Positions 13,398 to 21,022 of a stretch of DNA of 64,000 nucleotides are shown here, piece after piece. Both the position numbers and the translations under genes were made by a program. This stretch comes from Sabulibacter ruber (GTDB lineage: Bacteria; Bacteroidota; Bacteroidia; Cytophagales; Hymenobacteraceae): contig NZ_JAFFID010000001.1 of the NCBI RefSeq assembly GCF_017355955.1, forward strand, positions 372,001 through 436,000, given 5' to 3'. The notes under the pieces are model-generated. The model ran no database searches and was not told the origin of the DNA. It was given only the letters and a program-made list of their open reading frames with translations. How positions within the stretch are numbered: position 1 is the stretch's first letter; each line of letters starts with the position of its first letter.

Positions 13398-14048
13398 TTA
13401 CTCCCTAGGCTTATGACGGCTTTCCAGAACCTGCACTACTTCTGCCAGAGAGAGCCCACTTGCTTCTAACAGCACCAGTAAGTGGAAGATCAAGTCAGCT
13501 GCTTCGCCTTTCATCGGTTCTGTGTTTCCGGCTACTGCATCAATGACCACTTCTACAGCTTCTTCCCCTACTTTCTGGGCCATTTTGTTCAGGCCTTTGT
13601 TGAACAGGTGATTGGTATAGGAGCCTTCAATAGGGTTCTTTCTACGGTCCTTAATGGTTTGCTCCAGTTGAGCGATGAACTGCAACGCTTGTTCGGTTGG
13701 CGTGAAGTTCTGGAAGCTTCTCAGATGATAAGAGTCTCTGTCGCCTTCCACATCAAAGCAGGTCTCAGTGTTGCGATGACAGGCTGGTCCGGTTGGGTCC
13801 ACCAATATCAGAAGGGTGTCCTGGTCGCAGTCCAGTTCTATCTTCACCACCTTGAGCGTATTGCCCGATGTTTCGCCTTTGGTCCAGAGGCGGTTCTTGG
13901 AGCGGGAGAAGAAGGTTACCAAGCTTGTAGATTGAGTTTGCTGAAAGGCTTCTTCATTCATGTAGCCCAGCATCAATACTTTACCGGTAGCGGCATTCTG
14001 GATGATGGCGGGTACCAGCCCCTCTCCTTTGTTGAAATCTATGGTCAT
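13398..14048 (-). CDS. hisI: HisIE: phosphoribosyl-AMP cyclohydrolase / phosphoribosyl-ATP pyrophosphatase
   Basis: Bifunctional enzyme of histidine steps 2 and 3. 216 residues from MTIDFNKGEGLVPAIIQ (ATG at 14048). Further starts at 14093 and 14114 lie within or at the edge of a palindromic repeat and are less likely. The N-terminal cyclohydrolase domain (about 1-115) has LMLGYMNEEA, the SRSKNRLWTKGETSG loop and metal-site Cys residues in DQDTLL...GPACHRN. The C-terminal pyrophosphatase domain has ERKNPI-like DRRKNPIEGSY, KVGEEAVEVVIDA and GEAADLIFHLLVLL. It is the last his gene, separated from hisF by a 125 bp gap with two hairpins. Confidence 0.95.
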   Translation of the reverse strand: MTIDFNKGEGLVPAIIQNAATGKVLMLGYMNEEAFQQTQSTSLVTFFSRSKNRLWTKGETSGNTLKVVKIELDCDQDTLLILVDPTGPACHRNTETCFDVEGDRDSYHLRSFQNFTPTEQALQFIAQLEQTIKDRRKNPIEGSYTNHLFNKGLNKMAQKVGEEAVEVVIDAVAGNTEPMKGEAADLIFHLLVLLEASGLSLAEVVQVLESRHKPRE

Positions 14049-14082
14049 GTTTTTAACCTTTGTCTGCTTTTGAGATGTTTCT

Positions 14083-14118
14083 GTTTTTGACATGGTTTTA
14101 GAGAAACAAGTCAAAAAC
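14083..14118. repeat. 36 bp palindromic repeat, copy 4
   Basis: GTTTTTGACATGG... to ...CAAGTCAAAAAC. GTTTTTGAC and GTCAAAAAC are exact reverse complements at the two ends. It lies directly upstream of the chosen hisIE start. Confidence 0.6.
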
Positions 14119-14137
14119 AGATTGTGTCAGTAAAGGA

Positions 14138-14169
14138 AAACCTCACAGTTTTTTTAACCTGTGAGGTTT
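14138..14169. terminator. Hairpin in the hisF-hisIE gap
   Basis: AAACCTCACAG (14138-14148) pairs perfectly with CTGTGAGGTTT (14159-14169) around a 10 nt T-rich loop. No long U run follows on the minus strand, so it could attenuate or be an mRNA processing/stability hairpin instead of a full terminator. Confidence 0.5.
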
Positions 14170-14173
14170 GGCT

Positions 14174-14926
14174 CTAACATCTTATATCAATCTTATTCTC
14201 CGCCAAGAACTTCTTCAAGCCGAGTAACGGTACCTCCTGGAAGTGGAATATACTGGCGGCCAATGCGGCATCAGCACCGGCTTCAAATACATCTAAGAAG
14301 TGTTGCTCATTCCCGGCTCCGCCTGAGGCAATGACCGGAACTATCACGTTGCGGGAAATCTCGCCCGTAATATCCAGCGCGAAGCCGTTCTTGGTGCCGT
14401 CGTTGCTCATGGAGGTAAGCAGGATCTCTCCGGCGCCACGATCTACCACTTCCTTGGCCCAGTCCAGCGCCCAAAGTCCGGTATCTACCGTACCTGCTTT
14501 ACTGAAGACTTTCCAGCCTTCTGGGGTGCTTTTGGTGTCAATGGCCACGGTCACGCATTGGCTCCCGAAACGGCTCGCCAGTTCAGTAATCAGTTCCGGT
14601 CGGTGGATGGCCGAGGAGTTCACTGATACTTTATCGGCGCCGTTCTGCAACAGTACTTCCACGTCTTCCACAGCACTTATACCACCACCAACAGTAAATG
14701 GAATATCTATATAACGGGCTATCTCGCGCACCAATTCACGCAGGGTTTTGCGTTTCTCGTTGGTAGCAGTAATGTCCAGAAACACCAGTTCATCAGCGCC
14801 CTGTTTCGCGTACAAAGCTGCCAGTTCCACCGGGTCACCGGCATCGCGGATATTTTCAAACCGTACGCCCTTTACAGTTCGTCCGTTCTTGATATCCAGG
14901 CAAGGGATAATTCTTTTTGTGAGCAT
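14174..14926 (-). CDS. hisF: HisF: imidazole glycerol phosphate synthase cyclase subunit
   Basis: 250 residues, a complete (beta-alpha)8 barrel. With HisH it makes imidazole glycerol phosphate and AICAR from PRFAR and ammonia. It opens [19 protein letters not shown] with the catalytic Asp in CLDIKNG; the second catalytic Asp lies in [24 protein letters not shown], and phosphate loops TVGGGI and IASGGAG are present. The 205 bp gap to hisA upstream holds a REP-like element, yet gene order and strand keep it in the his operon. Confidence 0.97.
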
Positions 14927-15008
14927 TTGTAGATGCTAGTATTTAGATGTTAGATGCTGGACTTCAGAGTCAAGTCTGAACATCTTACTTGTTTAAATCA
15001 TTTTTTCC

Positions 15009-15119
15009 GCTGGCGCGAGCCTCCGGCTCGTGTCCGTATGCAGACCTGATGCTCTTTTGCGTCTCAGTGAATCACTAGTCAGTAATGCGTGGGGACACGA
15101 GCGGGACGCTCGCGCCAGC
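15009..15119. repeat. REP-like paired repeat (BIME-type element) between hisF and hisA
   Basis: Two 27 bp arms, 15009-15035 and 15093-15119, are inverted copies that match at 24 of 27 positions. Each arm holds its own hairpin: CGAGCC-TCC-GGCTCG on the left and CGAGCG-GGA-CGCTCG on the right. The arrangement of two inverted GC-rich REP units about 57 bp apart resembles BIMEs mobilised by REP-associated tyrosine transposases (RAYTs). No RAYT gene is in the window. Confidence 0.75.
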
Positions 15120-15131
15120 AAACCTTGTTAA

Positions 15132-15851
15132 CTAGATAACTTCTTTCGCCAGATCTTCCAGGGAAATGGTGCCTTCATAGATGGCTTTGCCGATGATAGC
15201 ACCATGCAGACCAGCTTCGCGGAGTTGACGTACTTCTTCAATAGTAGTTACGCCGCCGCTAGCGATGAACTGTAGCGTAGGAAACTGCTCCAGTAAACGC
15301 TGGTAAACCTCAATAGAAGAACCTTGCAGTTTGCCGTCTTTGCTTACATCGGTGCAGATGAACGTTTTTCCGCCCTTTTCGGCAAAAGAGGCTAAAAACG
15401 ATTCCAGTGTTAATTCACTTTGCTCCGCCCAAGCATTGATGGCAATGCGGTTGTCTTTGAAGTCAGCGCCTACAATGATACGGTCAGCACCATACTCCTG
15501 CAGCCAGGCTTCTACGGTTTGTGGCTCGCGTACCGCAATGCTACCAGCGGTGATTTGCTTTGCACCGGCATCAAACGCCTGACGGATGGCTTCAGAGCTT
15601 TGCAGACCTCCGCCGTAATCTATATGCAGTTTGGTTTGGCTGGCGATGCGCTCCAACACCGGAAGGTTCACTGGTTGTTTGGCACGAGCGCCATCTAAGT
15701 CTACCAGGTGCAGTCGGCGCAGGCCAAGGCCTTCAAATTGTTTTGCTACTTCAACCGGGTCTGTGTGGTACGTAGTCTGCTGCGAAAAATCACCTTCGGT
15801 GAGGCGAACGCATTGTCCGCCAATAAGGTCAATAGCCGGAATAATGTCCAT
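15132..15851 (-). CDS. hisA: HisA: ProFAR isomerase
   Basis: 239 residues. It isomerises ProFAR to PRFAR, step 4 of histidine synthesis. It starts MDIIPAIDLIGGQCVRLTEG with the catalytic base Asp in IPAIDL; the acid Asp lies in FICTDVSKDGKLQG, and phosphate loops DYGGG and ASGGV are present. Start and length are normal, with a 3 bp gap to hisH. The segment encoding ESFLASFAEKGGKTF coincides with a 36 bp GTTTTT...AAAAAC palindrome at 15364-15399. Confidence 0.97.
   Translation of the reverse strand: MDIIPAIDLIGGQCVRLTEGDFSQQTTYHTDPVEVAKQFEGLGLRRLHLVDLDGARAKQPVNLPVLERIASQTKLHIDYGGGLQSSEAIRQAFDAGAKQITAGSIAVREPQTVEAWLQEYGADRIIVGADFKDNRIAINAWAEQSELTLESFLASFAEKGGKTFICTDVSKDGKLQGSSIEVYQRLLEQFPTLQFIASGGVTTIEEVRQLREAGLHGAIIGKAIYEGTISLEDLAKEVI
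15364..15399. repeat. 36 bp palindromic repeat-like sequence inside hisA
   Basis: Starts GTTTTTCCGCCCTTTTC and ends GAGGCTAAAAAC, with the length and layout of the intergenic palindromes. The half-sites match at 12 of 18 positions. Being inside a gene, chance plus codon use cannot be excluded. Confidence 0.35.
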
Positions 15852-15854
15852 GGC

Positions 15855-16436
15855 TTAGAGATTTAAGAAGTTCTGAAGAATGTGTGCTCCCGCAGGACCA
15901 CTTTTCTCAGTATGAAACTGAACCGCGTAGAAGTTTTTGTACTGCAGGGCGGCACTGAAAGGCTCTGGGTACGAGCTCTGCGCAATGGTATGCTCTGTTA
16001 CCGGAGCATAAAAGCTATGCACGAAGTAAGCGTACTCATCTTCCTTAATTCCAGTGAATAAATTGCTCTTTAGGTGATGCAAATTGTTCCAACCCATGTG
16101 CGGCACTTTCACCGCTGCCTCAAATTTTTTCACCGGCACCGGAATGATTCCGAGCATCTCGGTATCACCTTCTTCAGAGTGCTGGCACAACAACTGCATT
16201 CCCAGGCAAACACCCAGGAATGGTTGCGTAAGCGTAGGCAACAGCAGATCCAGGTTATTTTCTTTCAACGCACGCATCGCTGAAGAAGCTTCGCCCACAC
16301 CCGGGAAAATTACCTTATCCGCAGATTGGATCTCTTCGGCATTAGAGGTAACGGTTGCTTGTGCGCCTAGTCGCTCCAAGGCGAAGAGCACGCTCTGCAC
16401 GTTACCTGCTTTATAATCTACTATGACGATTTTCAT
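15855..16436 (-). CDS. hisH: HisH: imidazole glycerol phosphate synthase glutaminase subunit
   Basis: 193 residues. A class I glutamine amidotransferase that supplies ammonia to HisF. The nucleophile Cys is in FLGVCLGMQLLCQ, with the His/Glu pair in YAVQFHTEKSG near the C-terminus; the N-terminal IVDYKAGNVQSV is typical. Its start shares one base with the hisB stop (TAATG), showing translational coupling. Confidence 0.97.
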   Translation of the reverse strand: MKIVIVDYKAGNVQSVLFALERLGAQATVTSNAEEIQSADKVIFPGVGEASSAMRALKENNLDLLLPTLTQPFLGVCLGMQLLCQHSEEGDTEMLGIIPVPVKKFEAAVKVPHMGWNNLHHLKSNLFTGIKEDEYAYFVHSFYAPVTEHTIAQSSYPEPFSAALQYKNFYAVQFHTEKSGPAGAHILQNFLNL

Positions 16437-17530
16437 TATAGAACGCCTTTGGTGCTTGGAATCTCCATCTTATTCACGTCACGCACTAACGCCATCTTAA
16501 TAGCTTTGGCCACGGCTTTGAAGATAGCCTCAATTTTGTGGTGCTCATTCTCGCCTTCAGCCTTTATATTCAGGTTAGACTTTGACGTGTCTGAGAAGGA
16601 TTTGAAGAAGTGCATGAACATCTCGGTTGGCATGTCTCCTACTTTCTCACGAGAAAACTTAGCATCCCACACCAACCATGGGCGACCAGAGAAGTCAATA
16701 GCAGCGTGTACCAGGGCATCATCCATTGGTAACAGGAAGCCGTAACGGTTAATGCCGCGTTTGTCGCCAATGGCTTGTGCGAAGGCTTCCCCTAAAGCTA
16801 AAGCAGTATCTTCAATAGTATGGTGCTCATCAATGTGCAAATCGCCTTTCACATGAATGCGCATGTCAACGCCTGAATGGCGAGCCAATTGGTCCAGCAT
16901 ATGGTCAAAGAAGCCAACACCCGTCTGCATATCTGATTTACCTTCGCCGTCCAGGTTTATCTCCACGCTGATTTGCGTTTCATTAGTGTTCCGCTGAATA
17001 GTAGCGGTACGGGCTGGCAAACGCAAGAAGTTGTATATCTCGTCCCAATCTGTGCTGATGAAGGAAGCATCTTCATTGGCTACGTCTTGTAACAAGATGC
17101 TTTTAGAACCGAGGTTTTTTGCCATCTGCACATCAGTAAGGCGGTCACCAATTACGTAAGAGTTGGCAAGGTCATATTCACCAGTTAAGTACTGGCCCAT
17201 CATGCCTAGGCGTGGCTTGCGGTTAGGACTGTTCTCGTGTTCAAAGCTGCGGTCAATGTGGATGTGAGAGAACTTAATGCCCTCGCCTTCCAGAATTTCC
17301 AGCATCTTGTTCTGGTAAGGCCAGAACGTATCTTCAGGGTAAGAATCTGTGCCTAGTCCGTCCTGGTTGGTGACCATCACGAATTCGTAATCCAGCTCTG
17401 TAAATATCTTGTAAAGGTTACGGATGACCTTCGGGTAGAAAGAGAACTTCTCAAATGAGTCTACCTGATAATCGGTAGGTGGTTCAAGAAGAATGGTACC
17501 GTCGCGGTCTATGAATAAAACTTTTTTCAT
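16436..17530 (-). CDS. hisB: HisB: bifunctional histidinol-phosphatase / imidazoleglycerol-phosphate dehydratase
   Basis: 364 residues fusing two enzymes, histidine steps 6 and 8. The N-terminal HAD phosphatase (about 1-165) has the DRDGT motif ([10 protein letters not shown]) and a zinc-loop region ending in VIGDRLTD. The C-terminal dehydratase (about 170-364) has [19 protein letters not shown], the metal-binding [14 protein letters not shown] and [14 protein letters not shown], and a second [11 protein letters not shown]. The fused form is typical of Bacteroidota and gamma-proteobacteria. It overlaps hisH by one base and follows hisC by 3 bp. Confidence 0.97.
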
Positions 17531-17533
17531 GGT

Positions 17534-18601
17534 TTACAGAGTGGCTTCTTGAGCAGAATAAGCGTTCAGTGATTCTAAAAGATTATCGTTTTCGGCAGGT
17601 GTGCCAATGGTAATGCGCAGGCAATTCGCACAACCCGGTTGAGTAGAACGGTTACGAACTACTACGCCACGCTCTAGCAAGTAGGCATACAGTTCATTCG
17701 CGTTCGGTACCTGTACCAGCACAAAATTGGCATCTGACGGGTACACCTTTTCAATAAGCGGAAGTGCTGCAAAAGCATCCATCAATCGAATACGCTCCTT
17801 GATAATAACTTGCAGCATATCCTCTAGTTGTGCAGTTTTATCTAAAGCAGCACTTACCAGTTCCTGCGTGACCACGTTGATGTTGTAAGGAGGCTTAATC
17901 TTGTTCAGGTAGCCAATAATTTCCGGCGAAGCGAAAGCCATTCCTAAACGAAGGCCGGCCATTCCCCAGGCTTTAGAAAGCGTCTGCATCACCATCAGGT
18001 TCGGGAACTCGTCTAAACGGGTAATCCAGCTAGGTGAATCGGTGAAGTCAATGTATGCTTCATCTACTACTACCAAACCACTAAAAGAACGGATGAGCTT
18101 CTCTACCGTGGCAGGCTCCAGAATATTTCCGGTTGGGTTATTAGGTGAGCACAGGAAAAGAATTTTGGTACGCTCGGTTTGTTTTTCGGCTATTTTCTCA
18201 AAAACAGGCTGAAAACGCTCATCTAGCGGTACCCGCTGAATGCCTATGTTGTGGATGTTAGCGCTTACCTCGTACATGCCGTAGGTTGGAGGCAACAGCA
18301 ACACCTCGTCACGGCCTGGCTCGCATACCAAGCGCATCAGCAGGTCAATGGCTTCGTCTGAACCGTTGCCAATGAAAATTTGCTCAGGTCTTACCCCTTT
18401 CAGCTTCGACAGCTTTTCTTTGATGGTTTTCTGGTAAGGGTCTGGGTAGCGGTTATAATCTACGCCTCCTGCCAGACTTCCCAGGTTATTTTCGTTTGCG
18501 TCCAGATAGACGCTGGCTTCGCCTTCAAACTCATCACGTGCCGATGAATAAGGCTTCAGTGACTTCAGGTGCGGACGAATGAAATTATCTATTGAAAACA
18601 T
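17534..18601 (-). CDS. hisC: HisC: histidinol-phosphate aminotransferase
   Basis: 355 residues, a class II PLP aminotransferase for step 7. Motifs are LDANENNLG at the start, the CSPNNPTGN loop, VVDEAYIDF, and the PLP-Lys region MQTLSKAWGMAGLRLG. The segment RFQPVFEKIAEKQTERT, a variable region before LFLCSPNN, is encoded by a 36 bp GTTTTT...GAAAAC palindrome (18181-18216) that resembles the intergenic repeat family. It lies 27 bp after hisD. Confidence 0.96.
   Translation of the reverse strand: MFSIDNFIRPHLKSLKPYSSARDEFEGEASVYLDANENNLGSLAGGVDYNRYPDPYQKTIKEKLSKLKGVRPEQIFIGNGSDEAIDLLMRLVCEPGRDEVLLLPPTYGMYEVSANIHNIGIQRVPLDERFQPVFEKIAEKQTERTKILFLCSPNNPTGNILEPATVEKLIRSFSGLVVVDEAYIDFTDSPSWITRLDEFPNLMVMQTLSKAWGMAGLRLGMAFASPEIIGYLNKIKPPYNINVVTQELVSAALDKTAQLEDMLQVIIKERIRLMDAFAALPLIEKVYPSDANFVLVQVPNANELYAYLLERGVVVRNRSTQPGCANCLRITIGTPAENDNLLESLNAYSAQEATL
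18181..18216. repeat. 36 bp palindromic repeat-like sequence inside hisC
   Basis: Starts GTTTTTCGGCTATTTTC and ends CAGGCTGAAAAC, with 12 of 18 half-site positions symmetric. On the coding strand it reads PVFEKIAEK; the similar segment in folC reads AVFEKKAQE, hinting at a shared origin. Confidence 0.4.
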
Positions 18602-18628
18602 GTTTGTTAGTTCAGGTAATCAGTATTG

Positions 18629-19909
18629 TTATTTCTTGGCTAGTCTAATGGTCACTGCATTTTTATGGGCATGTAACCCTTCTGCTTCTGCCATTATTTC
18701 TACGGCAGGGCCAATGCGCTCTAATCCCTCACGAGTCAGTTGCTGAAACGTAATCTTCTTCACGAAGCTATCCAGAGAAACACCGCTATAGTTGCGGGCA
18801 TACCCGTTGGTAGGTAACGTATGGTTAGTTCCTGAAGCATAGTCTCCTACCGATTCCGGGCTAAAGTGGCCCATGAAGACAGAACCAGCTTGGGTTACTT
18901 CTTCAGCCAGTACTTCAGGTGCATCCACAGAAAGGATTAGGTGCTCAGGAGCATACAGGTTAGAGAAAGCTAACGCTTCTTCCAGCGTGCTTACTACCAC
19001 ACCAATACTGTTATTCAGCGCTTGTTCAGCAACTGTCTGCCGTGGTAGTTTTGCTACCTGGTCTGCTACGGCAGCCTGTACGTTTTTGAGCTGATTTTCG
19101 GAATTCGTAACAAAAACAACCTGTGAGTCGGGGCCGTGTTCTGCCTGTGAAAGTAAGTCGGCAGCTACGAAGTCTGCATCCGCAGAATCATCTGCAATGA
19201 CCAATACTTCTGATGGACCTGCCGGCATATCAATGGCTACTCCTATTTGCGTCACCATTTGCTTGGCTGCGGTTACGTACTGGTTACCCGGACCGAAAAT
19301 CTTATCTACAGCCGGAACAGTCTCCGTCCCGAAAGCCATAGCAGCAATTGCCTGCGCCCCACCTGCTTTCAGGATGCGTTTAATGCCAAGTCTGTTAGCG
19401 GTATAGAGAATGGTAGCGTTAATAGAACCGTCTGCACTAGGCGGAGTAGAAAGAATGATTTCGCGGCAACCGGCAATCTGGGCGGGAACACCCAGCATAA
19501 GCAGCGTAGAGAACAAAGGTGCTGAACCTCCTGGGATGTACAAACCTACCTTCTGAATTCCCACAGATTTCCTCCAGCAGGTAACTCCTGCCATGGTCTC
19601 CACCTGTTGTACTGGTTCACGCTGCGCTTCATGGAAACGCTTTATGTTATTGTAAGCTAACTCAATAGCTTCTTTCAGTTCTTCTGAAACTTGCGGAATG
19701 GCAGCGGCAACTTCCTCTTCGGTTACCCATACACTTTGCAGCGTAGCTTTGTCGAATTTGGCTGCTAATTCTATCAGAGCCGCATCGCCACGTTGCTGAA
19801 CCAGATCAAAGGTCTGTTGCACGCCGGCCCTTAATTCATCCAGCTTTTGAACTGGTCGCTGGGTTAAGGCTGCCCATTCCTCTTGTTTAGGATATAGATA
19901 GGTTTTCAT
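18629..19909 (-). CDS. hisD: HisD: histidinol dehydrogenase
   Basis: 426 residues. A zinc enzyme oxidising histidinol to histidine in two NAD-dependent steps. Motifs are VGLYIPGGSAPLFSTLLM, KIFGPGNQYVTAAK, DMPAGPSEVLVIAD, LLSQAEHGPDSQ and GSVFMGHFSPESVGDYASG, with catalytic His residues in AEHG and NHTLPT. Start and length are ordinary. It lies 2 bp after hisG, so the two are tightly coupled. Confidence 0.97.
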   Translation of the reverse strand: MKTYLYPKQEEWAALTQRPVQKLDELRAGVQQTFDLVQQRGDAALIELAAKFDKATLQSVWVTEEEVAAAIPQVSEELKEAIELAYNNIKRFHEAQREPVQQVETMAGVTCWRKSVGIQKVGLYIPGGSAPLFSTLLMLGVPAQIAGCREIILSTPPSADGSINATILYTANRLGIKRILKAGGAQAIAAMAFGTETVPAVDKIFGPGNQYVTAAKQMVTQIGVAIDMPAGPSEVLVIADDSADADFVAADLLSQAEHGPDSQVVFVTNSENQLKNVQAAVADQVAKLPRQTVAEQALNNSIGVVVSTLEEALAFSNLYAPEHLILSVDAPEVLAEEVTQAGSVFMGHFSPESVGDYASGTNHTLPTNGYARNYSGVSLDSFVKKITFQQLTREGLERIGPAVEIMAEAEGLHAHKNAVTIRLAKK

Positions 19910-19911
19910 AC

Positions 19912-20763
19912 TTACCCAATCATCTTTTCGATAGGAACCACCAAAATACCCTCGGCACCGGCTTCTTTCAGTTTCTGGATGATGTCCCAGAAATCATCTT
20001 CGTTCACAACCGAGTGCAGCGAGCTCCAGCCTTCTTCCGCTAACGGAATGATGGTAGGCGATTTGATGCCTGGCAACAATGGCTTGATCTGCGGAATAGC
20101 TGAGTTAGGTGCGTTCAAAACCACGTACTTAGATTTCTGCGCTTTCTGAACCGCTTCCATTCTGAACAACAACTGCTGCAACAGCCGGTTCTTATCAGCA
20201 TCCAGGTTCTTGTTGGCAATTAAAACTGCTTCTGATTTGAAAACGGTTTCCACTTCGCGAAGACCGTTGCTGATAAGCGTGGAGCCGGAACTTACAATGT
20301 CACACACCGCATCCGCCAGGCCAATGCTGGGAGCAATTTCCACGGAGCCGCTGATAGTATGGATGTCGGCTTGCACCCCTTTCGAGGTTAAAAATTCCTG
20401 TAGCAGGTTGGGGTAAGAAGTCGCAATGTTCTTGCCCTGTAAAGAAGTAACATCGGTGTACGTGTCTCCTTTGGATACCGCCAAAGAAAGACGGCACTTG
20501 CTGAAGCCCAGGTTCTTCACAGATAAATCCTGCAGACCTTCCTCTACCAGCACGTTCTGACCCACAATGCCAATGTCGGCCACGCCGTCGGCTACGTAGC
20601 CGGGAATGTCGTCGTCGCGCAAGAACAGGATTTCTAGGGGGAAATTGGTGGCTTCGGTTTTGAGTTTGGAAGAAGCACTGATGAAAGAGATGCCGCACTC
20701 CCGGATGAGTTTTAAGGAATCATCTGAAAGGCGCCCGGATTTTTGAATGGCTAACCGGATCAT
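19912..20763 (-). CDS. hisG: HisG: ATP phosphoribosyltransferase (long form)
   Basis: 283 residues from the ATG at 20763 (MIRLAIQKSGRLSDDSLKLI). An upstream ATG at 20820 would add an unusual tail and overlap a hairpin, so I prefer 20763. This is the first and feedback-controlled step of histidine synthesis. The catalytic domains carry FLRDDDIPGYVADGVADIGI and the PRPP loop SGSVEIAPSIGLADAVCDIVSSGSTL. The last 75 residues (PTIIPLAEEGWSSLHSVV) are the HisG_C allosteric histidine-binding domain, so no HisZ is needed. First enzyme gene of the operon, preceded by a His-rich leader peptide. Confidence 0.97.
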   Translation of the reverse strand: MIRLAIQKSGRLSDDSLKLIRECGISFISASSKLKTEATNFPLEILFLRDDDIPGYVADGVADIGIVGQNVLVEEGLQDLSVKNLGFSKCRLSLAVSKGDTYTDVTSLQGKNIATSYPNLLQEFLTSKGVQADIHTISGSVEIAPSIGLADAVCDIVSSGSTLISNGLREVETVFKSEAVLIANKNLDADKNRLLQQLLFRMEAVQKAQKSKYVVLNAPNSAIPQIKPLLPGIKSPTIIPLAEEGWSSLHSVVNEDDFWDIIQKLKEAGAEGILVVPIEKMIG

Positions 20764-20819
20764 ATTTTTAAATAATTGCTTTGCGAAGCGTGAAATCGGG
20801 AACAAAGATAGTGGCTGCA

Positions 20820-20905
20820 TCGCTTATCTCTGAGTAAAGCGACGGCTAAATGGGGCCCAGCCCCAGTACGGGCGATATGATGATTTTATTCCTCCTAAGA
20901 GGAAT
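20820..20905 (-). promoter_or_regulatory. Putative his attenuator hairpins
   Basis: Three hairpins follow the leader His codons. ATTCCTC/GAGGAAT (20888-20894/20899-20905) has the leader stop codon in its loop. TGGGGC/GCCCCA lies at 20851-20856/20860-20865. TCGCTT/AAGCGA, with an inner CTC/GAG, spans 20820-20842. The GC-rich middle stem is the best terminator candidate, but the following U run is weak (ATTTAG), so the control could also act on translation of hisG. Confidence 0.5.
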
Positions 20906-20984
20906 GATGGAAGTGATGGCAATGCACCCCATGTACCGCAGAAGCGGCGTTAGAAAGGGAGATATTTTTGTAGGTGCTGCTCAT
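20895..20984 (-). CDS. his operon leader peptide (29 residues, six His)
   Basis: An ATG ORF of 29 codons starts at 20984 and ends in TAG at 20895-20897, ahead of hisG on the same strand. It begins MSSTYKNISL. Residues 18-27 read HGVHCHHFHH, six His in ten positions, followed by two Ser and the stop. Such His density in a short ORF before hisG is the signature of ribosome-mediated attenuation, as in enterobacterial HisL. It shows no sequence likeness to HisL beyond the His run. A matching promoter lies directly upstream and hairpins lie downstream. The translation is directly readable; the regulatory role is inferred. Confidence 0.85.
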   Translation of the reverse strand: MSSTYKNISLSNAASAVHGVHCHHFHHSS

Positions 20985-20993
20985 AATGTAAAC

Positions 20994-21022
20994 CAAAGGT
21001 AGTGCGTTCCCTTGAAAAACAA
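20994..21022 (-). promoter_or_regulatory. Promoter of the his operon
   Basis: On the minus strand, TACCTTTG (21001-20994) matches the TAnnTTTG -7 element exactly, with a TTG at 21022-21020 and an 18 bp spacer. The leader ATG at 20984 is only about 10 bp past the -7 box, so the transcript has almost no untranslated region before the leader peptide. Confidence 0.7.

Follow-up and report, generated by a model that had tools for sequence, protein, structure and literature searches.

The minus strand of the window (the whole stretch of 64,000 nucleotides that was analysed) carries a full his operon in the order hisG-hisD-hisC-hisNB-hisH-hisA-hisF-hisIE, and the HisG encoded there shares 98% identity with the Rufibacter hautae protein, which assigns the genome to Rufibacter. 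Homologues place the start of hisG, which was missed in the first-pass annotation, at ATG 20763 (MIRLAIQK), and an ATG is present there in 30 of 30 loci. According to the longest-ORF rule, the gene would begin at the in-frame ATG 20820; the homologues favour 20763 over this start, from which hisG would extend into the putative terminator hairpin. A 41-nt imperfect inverted repeat, with arms 29 nt apart, lies between hisA and hisF (14940-15120) in the otherwise tight operon. This stretch has 122 matches in the genome, counting its own site and double hits, and the repeat is a dispersed palindromic (REP-like) element. Within the family, a HisG match is absent from three of 150 genomes (G001, G007 and G071, two of which share one genus); these organisms are possibly histidine auxotrophs.

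The locus is made up of the following features, in the order of transcription:

20994 to 21022, minus strand: sigma-A type promoter, TTG-N18-TACCTTTG, with a predicted transcription start at about 20989
20895 to 20984, minus strand: ORF of the his leader peptide, 29 codons plus TAG, with six His
20973 to 20982, minus strand: region 1, the first leader codons, whose partner is region 2 or, by the model, the 5' arm of H3
20935 to 20948, minus strand: hairpin H0, within the ORF and immediately ahead of the His run (97.5% of cells paired, two-sided changes in 2 of 5 pairs)
20904 to 20933, minus strand: the codons for HGVHCHHFHH
20919 to 20930, minus strand: region 2, GGGGTGCATTGC, where the His run begins (matched versus cross pairing with region 1)
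20888 to 20905, minus strand: hairpin H1, whose loop holds the stop codon (99.1% of cells paired)
20870 to 20879, minus strand: conserved CATATCGCCC, the GCCC of which can pair with the GGGC of H2
20851 to 20865, minus strand: hairpin H2, GC-rich, without a U run
20818 to 20844, minus strand: hairpin H3, candidate intrinsic terminator (fixed-offset folding, covariation)
20801 to 20812, minus strand: U-rich tail of H3, ACTATCTTTGTT (T fraction)
19912 to 20763, minus strand: hisG, ATP phosphoribosyltransferase (TIGR00070)
13398 to 19909, minus strand: hisD, hisC, hisNB, hisH, hisA, hisF and hisIE

The 29-codon His-rich ORF on the minus strand, its promoter, the hairpin at its stop and the GC-rich stem had already been pointed out in the first-pass annotation, and all are found where it had placed them. 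The ORF translates into MSSTYKNISLSNAASAVHGVHCHHFHHSS, with His at residues 18, 21, 23, 24, 26 and 27. A program-made ORF list begins this frame at the in-frame ATG 21029 (44 aa), but ATG 20984 is the likelier start because ATG 21029 sits upstream of the -7 box. Among 16 Rufibacter leaders, CAT and CAC are both used at three of the six His positions. Residue 18 is replaced by Q or N in four of them, residue 23 by A in two and residue 24 by L or Q in five. Despite these replacements at single positions, every Rufibacter leader retains at least four His in 12 residues. The non-His part of the peptide varies widely among families, and a search of Pfam and NCBIfam gave no family match for the leader peptide of the window.

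The distribution of such leaders was assessed with a simple criterion: a short ORF beginning with ATG, with at least four His in 12 residues, at most 400 nt upstream of hisG. All 16 Rufibacter and all 70 family loci have an ORF of this kind ahead of hisG, as do 10 of 60 loci sampled from the remaining families of the order and 41 of 60 from the rest of the phylum. On the antisense strand, the corresponding counts are 0/16, 0/70, 1/60 and 0/60, and after dinucleotide shuffling they are 2/320, 9/1400, 4/1200 and 5/1200. Among the window's 50 long ATG ORFs, the same criterion returns a single positive, namely the his one. Judged by these counts, chance is excluded as the cause of the His-rich leader ORF. 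The 70 family loci comprise the 30 best matches and 40 picked from 147 genomes with HisG. The 60 order loci, about one per genus, were picked from 131 non-family genomes with HisG, and the 60 phylum loci among the matches listed for 252 genomes. A further 80 named loci served for names and, after de-duplication, for the Pontibacter sets, and lie outside the short-ORF counts. Outside the family, most of the order's loci have no such ORF, and a position of hisG as first gene of the operon was not a selection criterion. It had been proposed that an alignment within the Hymenobacteraceae should preserve both the reading frame and the stems and show synonymous codon exchange within the His run, and this is indeed the picture that emerges.

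The promoter consists of TTG at 21020-21022, 18 nt, TACCTTTG at 20994-21001 and then 9 nt up to the leader ATG. The box TANNTTTG lies 9 to 10 nt ahead of the leader ATG in all 16 Rufibacter; in the family at large it is found at most 60 nt upstream in 59 of 70 loci, with varied spacing, against a background of 22 in 423 windows of 60 nt. The Flavobacterium study places the promoter box at -12 to -5 (PMC9723704), and with a spacing of 9 to 10 nt the mRNA is therefore predicted to start 5 to 6 nt before the leader ATG. The leader mRNA is thus probably nearly leaderless at its predicted end. The earlier description of the leader as almost leaderless agrees with this spacing in 16 of 16 Rufibacter, as a prediction.

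A simpler form of the element occurs in other Bacteroidota. Between the leader and hisG, 40 of the 60 loci from the rest of the phylum have a strong, terminator-like hairpin (below -11.5 kcal/mol, with at least four T in the next 8 nt). These 40 loci, with L122, L128 and L098 added by hand, were used in a matched-pair test (n=43), in which the 3' end of the leader pairs with the 5' arm of the hairpin at -13.11 kcal/mol in matched and -8.58 kcal/mol in mismatched combinations (p=0.0002), a gap of 4.5 kcal/mol in favour of the matched ones. With one locus per family (n=15), the values are -12.66 and -8.44 (p=0.0002), and a control with the 5' end of the leader gives no pairing signal (p=0.21 and 0.71). 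When the window of pairing is slid along the sequence, with L098 left out (n=42), the signal is highest at the last leader codons (z -8.8, offset -24). In a folding model of the 40 loci, the arm is held upstream with a probability of 0.70 when the ribosome is on the His codons and 0.23 when it is at the stop, in the same direction in 40 of 40. Shuffling the letters of the arm lowers this gap from 0.442 to 0.209. Once at the stop, the ribosome would occupy the 3' strand of the leader; during a stall on the His run, this strand would stay free. In sequence and in model, the pairing of leader end and hairpin arm in the simpler form is that expected from the logic of leader-peptide transcription attenuation.

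This preserved complementarity also bears on the idea that the peptide itself acts, for instance as a small His-rich metal binder, or in trans like peTrpL. The sequence is certainly His-rich, and trans action of the leader peptide peTrpL is on record (PMC7298713). Relatives, however, preserve the RNA complementarity of the last codons while the residues outside the His codons differ widely between families, and the window leader lacks a Pfam or NCBIfam match, so that an action of the peptide is very improbable.

The Rufibacter leader is longer than the simpler phylum form and adds H0, the pairing of regions 1 and 2, H1, a CATAT-GCCC stretch, H2 and H3. Two of these elements, H0 ahead of the His run and H3 with its U-rich tail, were missed in the first-pass annotation. 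H1 has the sequence ATTCCTC-TTAG-GAGGAAT, and in 13 of 16 Rufibacter (control 13/320) and 24 of 24 Pontibacter loci (control 42/480) the stop codon lies in a loop closed by at least six pairs. In three other genera of the family, the counts are 2/7, 0/8 and 6/15. In three of the Rufibacter loci (L005, L012 and L015), the hairpin is kept and the stop is no longer in its loop. Downstream of the stop, CATATCGCCC is present in 13 of 16 Rufibacter, 18 of 24 Pontibacter and 0/7, 0/8 and 10/15 of the three other genera, as compared with 10/190 when the offset is chosen arbitrarily. Both forms coexist in one further family of the order, with a strong hairpin and T run in L122 and L128, and a stop-in-loop hairpin with CATATCGCCC in L095 and L100.

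In all covariation and pairing tests the statistics ignore shared ancestry. Regions 1 and 2 pair at -12.98 when matched and -11.98 when crossed in the 16 Rufibacter (p=0.001), and at -12.15 versus -10.44 in 40 mainly Pontibacter sequences (p=0.0002); covariation between the two regions is clear. In a MAFFT alignment of the 16 Rufibacter, the structure predicted for the termination state has nine pairs changed on both sides versus 4.5 in shuffles (2/500) and outscores slid versions of itself, and its count of pair types is not above shuffles (163/500). An alternative fold, in which region 2 pairs with the 3' side of H2, scores alike, and both folds fit the data equally. Folded in its entirety, the leader does no better than shuffles (z -1.32).

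Two hairpins compete for the role of terminator. The GC-rich stem H2 was examined as a candidate and set aside, as it has no U run and another hairpin comes after it. The earlier remark that this stem lacks a strong U run is borne out; the stem is not the terminator. Folding at a fixed offset gives a mean z of -1.95 at H3 in the 16 Rufibacter (controls 0.72 and -0.85, and -0.38 for one further control) and -2.32 in Pontibacter. The T fraction is 0.58 in the 14 nt past H3 and 0.32 across the gap in the same 16 Rufibacter. In the MAFFT alignment, H3 shows two-sided changes in six of eight pairs, with 58.9% of cells paired, its borders in the 16 Rufibacter having been placed by eye. The U tract is interrupted; a generic terminator scan makes no call at H3, and the authors' own hairpin scan chooses a different hairpin for the window sequence. 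Weighing its position, folding and tail against these points, H3, a variable hairpin with a broken U-rich tail, is probably the terminator of the Rufibacter form and is judged to be a weak intrinsic one.

The weakness of the U tract lends some weight to translational attenuation, in which the leader would govern access to the hisG start codon and not termination, and attenuators that act at the start site are indeed described (PMC9413887). In the window, however, H3 lies at -81 to -55 relative to hisG and leaves the start codon uncovered, and the 42 nt directly ahead of hisG show folding that is just marginally above that of shuffles (mean z -0.85, n=16). In relatives, moreover, the space between leader and hisG holds strong hairpins with T-rich stretches behind them. 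Translational control is thus unlikely. The first-pass annotation had proposed attenuation or a translational version of it; attenuation control of the his operon is supported by the comparisons and folding models, which favour the transcriptional option.

The tail of H3 raises a different matter, namely that a second promoter just before hisG might drive the operon and leave the leader with little weight. TANNTTTG occurs at this tail in 12 of the 16 Rufibacter (11 TATCTTTG and one TATATTTG, counted by eye), yet in the window no TTG is seen by eye about 19 nt upstream of TATCTTTG, and the four Rufibacter without the box still have a U-rich stretch. As the leader is moreover preserved in 70 of 70 family loci, such a promoter seems an improbable explanation.

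How the ribosome could act on H3 was modelled on transcripts that end at the H3 loop, the ribosome footprint being forced to stay single-stranded. The Pontibacter material comprised 40 sequences in the matching test (three of them Adhaeribacter; L164 was omitted because its start was not found), 37 in the scans and the fixed-offset folding, and 36 of these 37 in the ribosome models. In Rufibacter, the arm of H3 is held upstream with a probability of 0.48 with the ribosome on the His codons, 0.27 with the ribosome at the stop and 0.31 without a ribosome, the His value being higher than the stop value in 14 of 16 and the reverse in two. The gap between the two positions is 0.245 versus 0.066 (sd 0.028) with the arm shuffled, and none of 30 shuffles gave one as large. 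In Pontibacter, the values are 0.50 on His and 0.39 at the stop, in this direction in 25 of 36 and opposite in seven. In Rufibacter, the arm pairs mainly with region 1 (0.42-0.43 with the ribosome on His, 0.14 with it at the stop, 0.16 without a ribosome), and this pairing reaches 0.27-0.35, 0.17 and 0.22, respectively, in Pontibacter.

The comparative evidence for this partner is less uniform. Matching between region 1 and the H3 arm is seen in Rufibacter (p=0.0056) and not in the 40-sequence, mainly Pontibacter set (p=0.26), in which the arm has a stronger partner than region 1 in codons 9-16 (-9.16), without matching (p=0.45). Sliding scans for a partner of the arm reveal none that is strong in either genus. 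Their minimum falls at the ORF start (z -2.7 in Rufibacter, -2.9 in Pontibacter), with near-ties at +36 in Rufibacter (z -2.6) and at -18 in Pontibacter (z -2.5), and a finer scan of region 1 against the arm gives z -3.5 in Pontibacter and -1.6 in Rufibacter. Covariation between region 1 and the H3 arm is mixed. Folding to the terminator loop displays the switch better than folding with H3 complete. In the latter case, the window gives 0.82-0.87 with the ribosome on the His codons and 0.91 at the stop, and there is little shift in about half of the 16 sequences; a clear switch appears in some, such as L009 (0.17-0.64 versus 0.90), and L015 moves in the wrong direction (0.06 at the stop). Since the equilibrium with H3 complete moves little, the Rufibacter switch would need to be largely kinetic. 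The modelling is suggestive of the first leader codons holding the terminator arm mainly while the ribosome is on the His codons, and also suggestive of the pairing of region 1 with the 5' arm of H3 as the likeliest Rufibacter antiterminator.

Taken together, an ORF with cognate codons lies between promoter and first gene, as in leader-peptide attenuators, and we consider, with a probability of roughly 85%, that it encodes the leader peptide of an attenuator through which the ribosome controls transcription of the his operon. ORF, promoter, conservation and structures are supported by comparison of sequences; from these, we infer translation, stalling and termination at the his leader. Transcription would begin 5 to 6 nt upstream of the leader ATG, and a ribosome would load almost immediately. 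With ample charged His-tRNA, it would reach the stop, region 1 would pair with region 2, H3 would fold and RNA polymerase would halt before hisG. When His-tRNA is short, the ribosome would stall on the His run and mask region 2, leaving region 1 free for the 5' arm of H3; the antiterminator would form and the his operon would be transcribed. The Rufibacter form is a divergent attenuator variant. It could be imagined that the antiterminator of the Hymenobacteraceae in general spans the stalled ribosome, with the start region of the leader paired to the terminator arm, although this extension is tentative and rather doubtful. If true, one ribosome on the His run would open the operon and have its own start site closed behind it, unlike attenuators in which the strands that compete are found on the downstream side of the stalled ribosome.

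Attenuation by a leader peptide requires the ribosome to trail RNA polymerase closely, and in Bacteroidota Shine-Dalgarno signals are seldom used. The presence of an attenuation signature before hisG in many Bacteroidota, in Rufibacter with a predicted mRNA start 5 to 6 nt before the leader ATG, makes transcription-translation coupling in the phylum testable at a defined site.

The his leader seems not to stand alone. In the same genome, ilvD is preceded by a leader with Ile/Val codons, MRLQSVISIIVIIPLPQGG (G000:C111:1519802-1519861, locus L274), followed by a hairpin of -20.1 kcal/mol that has a T run and whose arm pairs with the end of the leader (-15.0); the 420 nt upstream of ilvD contain no TANNTTTG box. 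Upstream of trpE (G000:C111, upstream of 696514, locus L276), two tandem Trp leaders are found, MNKTQFQHIAWWHTRQI and MNQVQFSAMICWWHPSGER. Such a pair precedes trpE in 15 of 15 Rufibacter loci (L276 and L279-L292), trpE itself having been found in 15 of 16 Rufibacter genomes at the cut used. In all 15, TANNTTTG lies exactly 4 nt before the ATG of the first Trp leader, a spacing from which the trp mRNA is predicted to start at the A of the ATG; by this prediction, the first Trp leader is leaderless. T-run hairpins are seen by eye after both Trp leaders in the window genome, and the tandem arrangement is perhaps a double attenuator. For leuA of the same genome, no short Leu leader is evident in the 420 nt upstream. 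On the basis of the ilvD and trpE leaders, Rufibacter seems to employ leader peptides for several amino acids.

The reference system is the his attenuator of E. coli and Salmonella, in which a short ORF with His codons lies between promoter and hisG, together with hairpins and a terminator. The Rufibacter locus shares with it the short His-codon ORF between promoter and hisG, the hairpins, a predicted terminator and the kind of operon. It differs from that of E. coli in that the leader is nearly leaderless, the stop codon sits in a hairpin loop and the candidate antiterminator strand is at the start of the ORF, not past the His codons. The earlier suggestion that the exact mechanism might not be that of E. 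coli holds so far as tested, as the Rfam His_leader model does not match: RF00514 gives no hit above the cut-off in 60 family genomes and none in the window or its genome, and of the weaker matches in 17 of the 60, none of those listed is at a hisG place. There is likewise no Rfam match to a T-box riboswitch before hisG, the window giving only a tRNA at the gathering thresholds, and none to Bacteroid-trp (RF01692) in the window or its genome. Without an Rfam match for the element and a Pfam or NCBIfam match for the leader, annotation pipelines are likely to miss it. Vitreschak et al. in 2004 reportedly mentioned attenuators in Bacteroidetes/Chlorobi. Bacteroid-trp, listed as a cis-regulatory motif of Bacteroidetes (PMC2864571), resembles the present element in being a cis-regulatory class of that group, but has no match in the window's genome. 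His leader peptides of Firmicutes also have His codons in a short ORF, with terminator and antiterminator, according to portions of two papers (PMC2965389, PMC9413887), and belong to a different phylum. In the available part of the latter, a 2022 survey of his regulation, RNA attenuators are assigned to Proteobacteria and some Firmicutes and the word 'Bacteroid' is absent; in that of a paper on Bacteroidota his genes, attenuation is mentioned once, for enterobacteria (PMC8305728). The nearest papers, as far as their accessible portions go, are one on short ORFs in Bacteroides 5' UTRs (PMC7366714) and the transcriptome of Flavobacterium psychrophilum. In the latter, strong clues point to leader-peptide attenuation upstream of amino acid operons, and a hisG 5' element is listed that is conserved in Flavobacteriaceae and has no Rfam hit (PMC9723704). 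That element, too, is from Bacteroidota, and the portion at hand gives no his peptide or switch for it. Flavobacteriaceae-like loci have the simpler form with strong hairpins, unlike Rufibacter. Clues to leader peptides in Flavobacterium are therefore already published, and the Rufibacter form adds a new variant to them.
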